64,000 nucleotides of DNA from Chloracidobacterium thermophilum B. GTDB taxonomy: Bacteria; Acidobacteriota; Blastocatellia; Chloracidobacteriales; Chloracidobacteriaceae. Both the position numbers and the translations under genes were made by a program. The stretch covers positions 806,001-870,000 of the forward strand of contig NC_016025.1 of the NCBI RefSeq assembly GCF_000226295.1. Direction: 5' to 3'. The notes under the pieces were generated by a model. It saw nothing but the letters and a program-made list of their open reading frames with translations, was not told where the DNA came from and searched no databases. Numbering within the stretch: the stretch's first letter is position 1; each line of letters begins with the position of its first letter. Shown one piece after another: positions 57,701 through 59,130 of this stretch.

Positions 57701-59130
57701 CCATCGCAGAAGCCCTTGCCGCGGAGCAGCACTTCTTCCACTGGCCGCTGGAGTTCCCGGAGGTGTTTGGGGGAATGGCGAGTAGCGAATGGCGAGTGGC
57801 GAGTGGTGGGGAGGCGAGTGGCGAATGGCGAGTGGCGAGTGGTTCAGAAGCGAGTGGTGAGTGGCGAGTGGCGAGTGGTTCGGAGGGCAATTCACTACTC
57901 GCGACTCGCGACTCGCGACTCGCTTCCCTCCCACTCGCCCCTTCCCCCACCGGCTTCGACGTGGTGCTTTCCAACCCGCCCTGGGAGATGATTCAGCATG
58001 ACCCGGAAGAGTTTTTTGCCACTCGTGAACCAGCCATTGCCGCTGCTCCCAACATGGCCAAGAGAAAAAAGATGATTGAGAATCTGCGTGAAACAAATCC
58101 ATCTCTATACCATGAGTTCTGGAAGAAACAGCACGCCAATGACTGTTTCAAAAAATTCCTCCACTTTTCAGGGAGATTTATGCGCACTGGCAGGGGGAGG
58201 ATGAACATGGCATATATTTTTGCTGAACTCAGCTCAATGCTCATGGCAAAATCAGGCAGGGCTGGCTTAGTGGTGCCAACGGGACTCATGACGGATTCGT
58301 TTGCTCAGGAGTTTTCTTCAAGCATTATCGAAAACAACCAACTTGTCAGCCTGTTCGACTTTGAAAACCGCGAAAAACTTTTCCAGGCAGTGGACAGCCG
58401 CATGAAATTCTGCCTGCTTACCCTGACCGGCGGGAGTGAGGAAGTGGGTAGCGAACAGGGAGCGAGTAGCGAGCGGCGAGTAGCGAGTAGCGAGCAAGTA
58501 GCGAGCAGCGAGCAGCGAGTAGCGAGTGAAGCGAGTAGCGAGCAGCGAGTAGCGAGTAGCGATCAACCACTCGCCACTCGCCATTCGCCACTCGCCAATT
58601 CCGCCACTCGCCACTCACTACTCGCTTTTTTCGCCACCCGCGCCGAACATCTCCGGGACCCACGCCGTGTTTTCAGCCTGACGGCCGACGATATTCGTGT
58701 CATCAATCCAAACACGCGGACTTTGCCAGTATTCCGTACCCGGCAGGATGCCGACCTGACGCGCGCCATCTACGAGCGTGTACCTATACTGGTCAACGAG
58801 AAGACAGGTCAAAACCCTTGGGGTATCAGTTTCAAATTGATGTTCATGATGAACACTGACTCGCACCTCTTCCGCACCCGCGCCGAACTGGAAAAGGAAG
58901 GCTACCGGCTGGTGGGGAACCGGTTTGTGAAGGAAGCGAGTGGCGAGCAGCGAGTAGCGAGTAGTGAGAAAGCGAGTCGCGAGCAGCGAGTAGCGAGTTG
59001 TAAGGAAGCGAGCGGCGAGTGGCGAGTAGTAATTCACCACTCGCTACTCGCGACTCACTACTCGCCAATTCCGCCACTCGCCACTCCTCACTCGCCAACA
59101 CCTATCTTCCCCTCTACGAAGCCAAGATGA
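54718..59130 (+). CDS. Eco57I/PglX-type adenine methyltransferase, N-terminal part, repeat-interrupted
   Basis: The N-terminal 1470 residues of a class I adenine DNA methyltransferase. An N-terminal domain (1-270), RKSTGSYYTPPELVAELI (about 528), SAM motif I VLDPACGSGHFLLAAARRLG (about 763) and catalytic motif IV SNPPWEM (about 1085) are in order. Five heptamer hairpin insertions interrupt it (residues about 271-363, 568-751, 1019-1074, 1244-1302, 1405-1459); the frame stays open through the first four. In the fifth it shifts and ends out of frame at 59130, while the true continuation is 59019-60368. Without insertions the enzyme would be about 1320 residues, like DrmMI/PglX. It may be a switched-off allele. 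Confidence 0.85.
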   Translation: MSQLSAVRIEGGLLGPDTLEKLLAGELPGQKLQDFGLDGRRSLTDEIASVFADARTQWEVFQRRLERLPKDDPATSVTRDAWLIPFLSLLGYELRYNARAHDIDGATFAISHRAGEAEDAPPVHLVGVRQELGRLAPGSRSRLAPHSLVQEYLNRTDHVWGLVTNGLVVRLLRNSTFVRRQAYVEFDLRQILEEQRFGDFAVLYRLLHRTRLPRTAEDAPDCLLEQYYRDAIEQGGRVREGLRAGVEACIKHLANGFLAHPANAGLRGEEEASGEWRVASGREASSEWRVASGREASSEWRVASGSEASSEWRVASGSEASSEWRVASSNQPLATHHSPLAPEPLATHHSPLAPSATHHSPLAPHDFYRQLLRLVYRLLFLLVSEDRGLIGDSPLYREHYGVARLRRLLDRHSAYTDHEDIWCSLKVLWKVLSDDNLAACLGMSPLNGALFEPLDLDQCSISNRDFLEAFWHLAYYREEPSAPPRRVNYAALDVEELGSVYESLLDYHPQIDMSGRVPRFELASGSERKSTGSYYTPPELVAELIRSALEPVLEERLAEARRMADELQRVANGEWRVVRQMIIERFGERHGNSILSRLGSLAESDAPGRTGVSAHRELPPGGTVRADEPNAACRNLGSGEHRGGLGPAGNEGVSSFSQHRGGQPERAGNLHFAGTAGGTGGSGDNPADTGLDSCTQQTDGESSAQSQEELVPHSPPASTGSSRNCPYPSPLAPEPLTTRHSLLATRHSPLAQALAEHTLLSLRVLDPACGSGHFLLAAARRLGKELAKIRTGKDEPDPDHVREAIRDVVARCLYGVDKNPLAVELCRVALWLEAHCVGKPLTFLDHHIKCGDSLVGVRDLAVLERGIPDEAFAPVSADDKSAAAALKKQNKKERHDLETRQGQLPFDPTDLLAGLQAQRQQLEAIADDSPADVRRKKSLYDDYDRDPQRRKLAEACHLWTAAFFQRLKPGAAPSAITTQVITDHLADRRHPQAVAIAEALAAEQHFFHWPLEFPEVFGGMASSEWRVASGGEASGEWRVASGSEASGEWRVASGSEGNSLLATRDSRLASLPLAPSPTGFDVVLSNPPWEMIQHDPEEFFATREPAIAAAPNMAKRKKMIENLRETNPSLYHEFWKKQHANDCFKKFLHFSGRFMRTGRGRMNMAYIFAELSSMLMAKSGRAGLVVPTGLMTDSFAQEFSSSIIENNQLVSLFDFENREKLFQAVDSRMKFCLLTLTGGSEEVGSEQGASSERRVASSEQVASSEQRVASEASSEQRVASSDQPLATRHSPLANSATRHSLLAFFATRAEHLRDPRRVFSLTADDIRVINPNTRTLPVFRTRQDADLTRAIYERVPILVNEKTGQNPWGISFKLMFMMNTDSHLFRTRAELEKEGYRLVGNRFVKEASGEQRVASSEKASREQRVASCKEASGEWRVVIHHSLLATHYSPIPPLATPHSPTPIFPSTKPR
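55531..55807. repeat. Heptamer hairpin element E1
   Basis: Left arm 55531-55705 is built of GCGAGTR heptamers, here organised as four ~36-bp higher-order repeats encoding REASSEWRVASG-type peptide. After a spacer of about 5 bases, the right arm 55711-55807 is the reverse complement type (CCACTCGCCACTCACCACTC). The arms can pair over most of the right arm. It lies between the N-terminal domain and the next helical region of the methyltransferase and is open in its frame. Confidence 0.9.
56486..56848 (+). CDS. Four-helix-bundle protein (S23 / 23S rRNA IVS-type), nested
   Basis: A 120-residue protein of the family first seen in intervening sequences of 23S rRNA genes. It has IQSYQDLEVWQKAMHLAEQV, TASFPREELFGLTSQMRRAA, TSVPANIAEGWARRGTKEFL and FLNIAAGSLRELETYTLLAQ, the standard order. 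ATG 56486 follows GGAG by 7 bases, so it can be translated by itself. It lies wholly inside the methyltransferase gene, in another frame and same strand. Relatives include Avd of diversity-generating retroelements, a nucleic-acid-binding pentamer; no reverse transcriptase is seen here. Confidence 0.9.
   Translation: MAIQSYQDLEVWQKAMHLAEQVYQLTASFPREELFGLTSQMRRAATSVPANIAEGWARRGTKEFLHFLNIAAGSLRELETYTLLAQRVGLAAPVTTQPILDWIHVLSKQMVNLQRSLRRS
56874..56894. repeat. Near-perfect palindrome downstream of the S23 gene
   Basis: GGGCAGTTCC and GGAACTGCCC flank one C. It begins 26 bases after the S23 stop, inside the right arm of E2. It may be a terminator for the nested gene or a transposase-recognised (REP-like) palindrome. 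No T-run follows. Confidence 0.7.
57774..57939. repeat. Heptamer hairpin element E3
   Basis: Left arm 57774-57880 (GCGAGTGGCGAATGGCGAGT-type units, peptide GEWRVASG), right arm about 57892-57939 (ACTACTCGCGACTCGC). It is inserted about 11 codons before the catalytic NPPW motif of the methyltransferase and is open in its frame. Confidence 0.9.
58449..58625. repeat. Heptamer hairpin element E4
   Basis: Left arm 58449-58563 (GCGAGTAGCGAGCAGCGAGT-type), right arm 58567-58625 (CCACTCGCCACTCGCCATTC). It follows the conserved block MKFCLLTLTGG and precedes FFATRAEHLRDPRRVFSL. It is open in the methyltransferase frame. Confidence 0.9.
58934..59096. repeat. Heptamer hairpin element E5, site of the frameshift
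   Basis: Left arm 58934-59030, right arm 59034-59096. From about 58981 it is almost identical to part of E6, but at 59006-59026 it has three heptamers (GCGAGCG, GCGAGTG, GCGAGTA) where E6 has four. The missing heptamer changes the frame, so the methyltransferase leaves its coding frame here. Confidence 0.92.

Follow-up and report, generated by a model that had tools for sequence, protein, structure and literature searches.

The stretch of Chloracidobacterium thermophilum B DNA analysed here (64,000 nucleotides, positions 806,001 to 870,000 of NC_016025.1; referred to as the window) carries an operon that continues past its end and whose genes are assigned by PADLOC, in order, to DpdE/DrmD, DrmMI and DruE (Table 1). 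The BrxHII/RapA-like helicase gene is the 5' partner of the adenine methylase gene, which starts at 54718. This succession of a BrxHII-like helicase, a PglX-like methylase and a YprA/DruE-like helicase in one operon is shared with the defence system ARMADA (PMC12458937). The window differs from ARMADA by a Transposase_31 gene interposed between the methylase and YprA-like helicase genes and by the lack of a GajB-like fourth gene directly downstream, so that its assignment to a type is tentative. The Transposase_31 (PF04754) gene, at 60436-61422, is found here in one copy; about four related ORFs lie in tandem in a genome of the same genus (G004; L047, 2083-6276) and none is present in another (G005).

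Table 1. Features of the methylase operon and its insertions (window coordinates)
Feature	Coordinates	Strand	Remarks
BrxHII/RapA-like (DpdE/DrmD-like) SNF2 helicase	51833..54721	+	PADLOC DpdE 6.5e-186, DrmD 1.5e-93; SNF2-rel_dom, Helicase_C
PglX/DrmMI-like adenine methylase, upstream part, 1470 aa	54718..59130	+	DrmMI 1.1e-63; Eco57I PF07669
E1, in-frame insertion with heptamer arms and a period of 36 bp (12 aa)	55525..55812	+	length differs from G004 by multiples of 3
E2, insertion with heptamer arms and a nested IVP gene; no stop in the host frame	56398..56985	+	
IVP/S23 gene (PF05635, four-helix bundle) nested in E2, host frame +1	56486..56848	+	PF05635 1.3e-36; PDB 2gsc 6e-26
E3, heptamer-armed insertion, just 5' of the catalytic NPPW motif, in frame	57763..57948	+	
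E4, heptamer-armed insertion, in frame	58429..58629	+	same site in L120, L145, L148
E5, heptamer-armed hairpin insertion, frame-breaking, one heptamer short	58931..59098	+	same site in frame in L120, L123
E5 three heptamers GCGAGCG GCGAGTG GCGAGTA	59008..59028	+	four in E6 and in E5 of G004
Methylase downstream part (C-terminal region), other frame, 449 aa	59019..60368	+	continues TYLPLYEAKMIW
E6, in-frame heptamer-armed insertion with four heptamers	59704..59972	+	array length equal in G004
E7, short heptamer-armed insertion	60136..60246	+	30 bp longer in G004
YprA/DruE-like helicase, same operon, runs beyond window end	61621..63999	+	DruE 2.7e-43; continues in L097

The methylase gene holds seven insertions, E1 to E7, most of them with arms of tandem GCGARTR heptamers followed by the reverse complement. 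Heptamers of this type are abundant: the pattern GCGARTRGCGARTRGCGA has 85 matches in the window against 0.09 expected, and a genome-wide census, made by pattern searches and on selected stretches of the genome, gave 199 matches to a related pattern and 0 to its reversed control. The sequence-only reading had placed the heptamers of E5 and E6 in hairpin arms. Folding agrees with this (E5 RNA at -87 kcal/mol, z -7.4 against shuffles; E6 z -10.4), and its scope is broadened in that the gene holds seven such insertions, E5 among them. Rickettsia palindromic elements resemble E1-E7 in being in-frame insertions of palindromic repeats into protein-coding genes; they are not known to have heptamer arrays or a nested IVP gene. 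ORFs of 312-500 codons extend across three further arrays of the genome (L058, L060 and L066), and most others are unspanned. A long region of diverged repeats of ~126 bp with several heptamer arrays is also found (L055, G000:C2:163000-172500), and a 126-bp repeat occurs likewise at window positions 4993-5264.

Insertion sites in methylases of different phyla were mapped on the G005 protein, used as a reference that lacks those insertions. Arrays of different phyla share sites near G005 residues 389 (E3), 550-558 (E4) and 665 (E5). The E3 site is used also in L120, L127, L130 and L154. The E5 site holds an in-frame insert in the Thermoflexus protein (L120, Chloroflexota), which reads RFVR-REASSESQVASSEQEQPLATRHSPLAS-TYLPLYEAKMI there, and an insert also in L123, from a genome of Bacteroidia. 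The insertions account for the SEWRVAS/ATRHSPLA peptides found in these methylase proteins. In an AlphaFold model of the window residues from 55813 onwards, built on a 20-sequence alignment, the methylase core has pLDDT values mostly of 80-95 and the inserts E2-E4 values of ~25-35; the stretches of very low confidence coincide exactly with E2, E3, E4 and E5. The best Foldseek matches of this model are PglX/BrxX (8c45, E 2e-7), with low TM-scores. The model suggests that the inserts are plausibly disordered loops of the methylase protein; the ribosome would read through them as such, and the methylase would survive.

E5 is the insertion at which the methylase frame breaks. In E6 the sequence GTTGTAAGGAA is followed by GCGAGTG GCGAGCG GCGAGTG GCGAGTA and then GTAATTC; in E5 the same GTTGTAAGGAA is followed only by GCGAGCG GCGAGTG GCGAGTA before GTAATTC. 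The frame of 1470 codons that starts at 54718 and ends at 59130 goes out of frame inside E5. The true, natural continuation of the methylase, NTYLPLYEAKMIW (NTYLPLYEAKMIWHYDHR...), is read in the ORF 59019-60368 (449 codons). The counts of three and four heptamers and the position of the break, both noted in the sequence-only reading, are thus borne out. Its expectation that one added heptamer yields a continuous gene is realised in G004, which differs from window positions 58900-59130 solely by an additional GCGAGTG and whose methylase is a single open frame of 1948 codons, with 91% identity to the downstream part of the window gene. Among the other genomes of the genus (G001-G006) E5 is common to G004 alone. 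The G005 methylase has neither E5 nor E6, no match to the C-terminal part of the methylase was obtained in G001, G002, G003 or G006, and the E5 region has no match in the PLSDB plasmid collection. The G005 methylase has a frameshift of its own, in a GC-rich stretch without heptamers (L048, around 7500).

Since E6 has four heptamers and an equal array length in both genomes, the simpler direction of change is the loss of one heptamer from E5 of the window. The other arrays have also changed between the window and G004, by 6 (net) bases in E1, 21 in E2, 27 and 27 in E3, 30 in E4 and 30 in E7, and the G004 methylase carries one additional insertion of 120 bases. Every in-gene array difference apart from E5 is a multiple of 3. 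Array changes in both lineages have therefore preserved the frame, and the 7-base loss in E5 is the exception. Intergenic heptamer arrays of the two genomes show differences of 7 and 21 bases.

The sequence-only reading took E5 for an evolved phase-variable switch, in which heptamer slippage would reversibly turn the methylase and its defence system on and off. A single unit does toggle the frame, three heptamers breaking what four keep open, with the relative G004 in the ON state; steps of 7 bp occur also at the intergenic arrays, and the heptamer number of the Coxiella 23S rRNA intervening sequence (IVS) differs among strains (PMC4990558). In the neuO switch, too, the frame depends on the number of heptamers, which ranges over 3-53 units, and of 64 complete genomes 65.6% have the gene OFF (PMC13001214). 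However, neuO is a single long tract that is OFF in most genomes, whereas the E5 array is short and imperfect and its relatives are in frame. The longest perfect heptamer run is 2 units in E5 and 3 in the whole gene, so that a long, nearly pure tandem tract is absent, and the remaining arrays of the gene change in frame only. Among ~28 homologous host methylases that were mapped, a frame break beside an array was found in L128 only, a frequency far from that of neuO OFF genomes; ON and OFF states are not both common among these relatives, which are different species, not strains. These data argue against a switching role for the arrays and are compatible with rare slippage, and we regard a dedicated E5 switch as very improbable. 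The methylase of L125 has several frame breaks, none of them near arrays. That of L128 (1734-4005), which belongs to a cyanobacterial MAG and carries an IVP, has three frame changes, two of them beside heptamer arrays.

The E5 break looks like a one-off, sporadic event, and two origins for it are about equally likely: collapse during assembly and a real frameshift. The 2011 sequence of strain B is a Roche 454 assembly of a non-clonal enrichment, from which the later clonal PacBio genome of the strain differs, that of the derived isolate being ~61 kb longer (PMC8245765). Because of this provenance it is possible that the assembly dropped one heptamer of E5 from a gene that is in reality intact, a collapse perhaps helped by the near-identity of E5 and E6; everywhere else the methylase gene of the window stays in frame. 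Errors of 454 sequencing are, however, mostly homopolymer indels and here a 7-base unit is concerned, and typical 454 reads exceed the 168 bp of E5. A fixed frameshift in the sequenced cells, by slippage between the imperfect repeats, is a comparable possibility. The strain B methylase would then be a recent pseudogene or function as two pieces, as might be expected from retention of the SAM-binding and NPPW region in the upstream piece, and the G005 methylase offers a second case of frameshifting, one without heptamers. The neighbouring operon genes appear intact, though, and the split falls inside an element, without a natural domain boundary or a good start site. ARMADA defence requires its methylase (PMC12458937). 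The gene order of the window fits that system, and the split, if real, is therefore predicted to disable the enzyme and, with it, both methylation and the ARMADA-type defence.

E2 stands apart from the other insertions by the gene nested in it. The IVP gene is preceded by the Shine-Dalgarno sequence GGAG at 56476-56479, six bases 5' of its ATG at 56486, and the methylase frame crosses it without a stop. It codes for the only IVP of the genome, the other six insertions having none. E2 thus encodes the PF05635 protein typical of S23/IVP elements but its site is a methylase gene, not 23S rRNA. Pfam and PDB searches with the E2 product give IVP only, so that it is not an HNH homing endonuclease, and no reverse transcriptase (RVT_1) that might act as mobilising partner was found in this genome. 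A search of IMG/VR with the IVP gave one relative, at a contig end. S23/IVP proteins are common and are not known to have transposase or nuclease activity.

With the window's IVP as query, 80 IVP loci were collected from many phyla, a set that is consequently not a random sample of IVPs. In the near flanks of the IVP, period 7 is the strongest in 61 of the 80 loci and period 14 in another 10; the corresponding counts in the far flanks, used as control, are 10 and 1. In 30 loci from Acidobacteriota the mean for period 7 is 0.65 in near flanks against 0.42 in far flanks. Tandem repeats of 8 rather than 7 bases flank the IVP in L067, L076, L079, L088, L091 and L096.

An ORF spans the IVP in 41/80 loci, always in relative frame +2 and never in +1. 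Nesting was also assessed independently of openness, in 36 loci chosen because the IVP is flanked on either side by host homology. In 35 of them one host frame is open across the IVP, always in relative frame +2. Their hosts are Eco57I/DrmMI-type in 26 cases and DUF1156/HmaB-type in 10. PADLOC names for IVP hosts comprise DrmMI (L122, 4e-235), HmaB (L186) and an HmaA/DrmD-like helicase (L160), and one host is a TRCF gene (L151). For nested IVPs, defined in this count by an open +2 frame, synonymous shuffles predict 2.0 stops in +2 and the actual sequences have 0; for non-nested IVPs 5.5 are predicted and 4.6 observed. The IVP proteins share 59% identity and the peptides read from them in the host frame 32%, equal to the +1 control. 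It follows that selection acts on the IVP as product and that the host frame need only stay open.

The phylogeny of the IVP is largely independent of that of its host gene, as judged from comparisons with long host segments and a host-host control. Distances of the host segments on either side of the insertion correlate well with each other (Mantel r 0.76), and the IVP correlates poorly with the two segments (0.175, p 0.03, and 0.089, p 0.17). In log-likelihoods from AU runs, the IVP alignment scores -3174 on its own tree, -3604 to -3655 on host trees and -3657 to -3741 on random trees, so that host topologies suit the IVP hardly better than random topologies do. When the two host sides are compared in the same way as a control, about two thirds of the log-likelihood gap for one side is closed by the tree of the other, the host halves being themselves partly mosaic. 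Five homologues have an empty E2 site: in them YYTP and motif I are 39-46 residues apart, compared with 239 in G004. Such a pattern would be expected of a mobile element that enters one site repeatedly, although excision, movement or target duplication of heptamer-armed IVP elements was not seen in the sequences compared. Inheritance of an immobile IVP with the host methylase from one ancient insertion would account for a site and a frame that are constant throughout the DrmMI-type hosts. We consider it unlikely, given the decoupling of the IVP phylogeny from the host sequence flanking the site and the nesting of IVPs also in DUF1156/HmaB-type methylases, in the HmaA/DrmD-like helicase and in the TRCF gene.

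The closest precedents are the IVS of 23S rRNA and the ShiLan insertion. The IVS of Coxiella and Leptospira shares with E2 the protein family, complementary hairpin-forming ends and heptamers beside the ORF; in Coxiella these are tandem heptamers 5' of the S23p ORF, in strain-dependent number (PMC4990558). In contrast to E2, which lies in a protein gene whose frame stays open, the IVS lies in rRNA, from which RNase III removes it. The ShiLan insertion resembles E2 in its location in a DNA methylase, in a host frame without stop and in coding for an out-of-frame protein, a hidden HNH endonuclease; its distribution is patchy and homing-like and it is predicted to be harmless to the methylase (PMC11855218). 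The same arrangement, an insert open in the host frame with another protein out of frame, is found in the window and in the 35 of 36 contexts above. The two differ in that ShiLan encodes an HNH nuclease and E2 a four-helix-bundle protein, and in that ShiLan is known from actinobacteriophages with no heptamer arms reported, whereas the IVP elements occupy bacterial defence genes across phyla. Neither IVP elements nested in protein genes nor heptamer-armed IVP elements in defence methylases were found described in the literature searched, most subscription journals lying outside the search.

The element may be described as a potential long hairpin with tandem GCGARTR heptamers in its left arm and their reverse complement in its right arm. 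It is likely, on the whole of these data, that the methylase gene carries seven elements of one kind, that E2 is translation-transparent and probably a homing element, and that E5 is a sporadic break rather than a switch. E2 would then be a mobile element surviving by translational silence, as its IVP nested in a fixed second frame with its own history indicates, and E1 and E3-E7 would be its IVP-less relatives. The broader reading has about an even chance of being correct: a homing-element class in which an IVP between inverted heptamer arms invades fixed sites of defence methylases across phyla, always with a fixed second frame, and of which IVP-less copies spread. That this class is widespread and hitherto undescribed belongs to the same reading and shares its even chance. 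There is a real chance that the heptamer-armed IVP elements form a distinct class. Nested IVPs offer a testable system for IVP function, and heptamer frame breaks in such genes may represent decay or assembly error, not phase variation.

Two blocks of the methylase gene, 57925-58400 and 59383-59570, have only 45-75% identity between the window and G004 amid blocks of 93-100%. The first of them is bounded by E3 and E4, which suggests that it might have been replaced by allele exchange.
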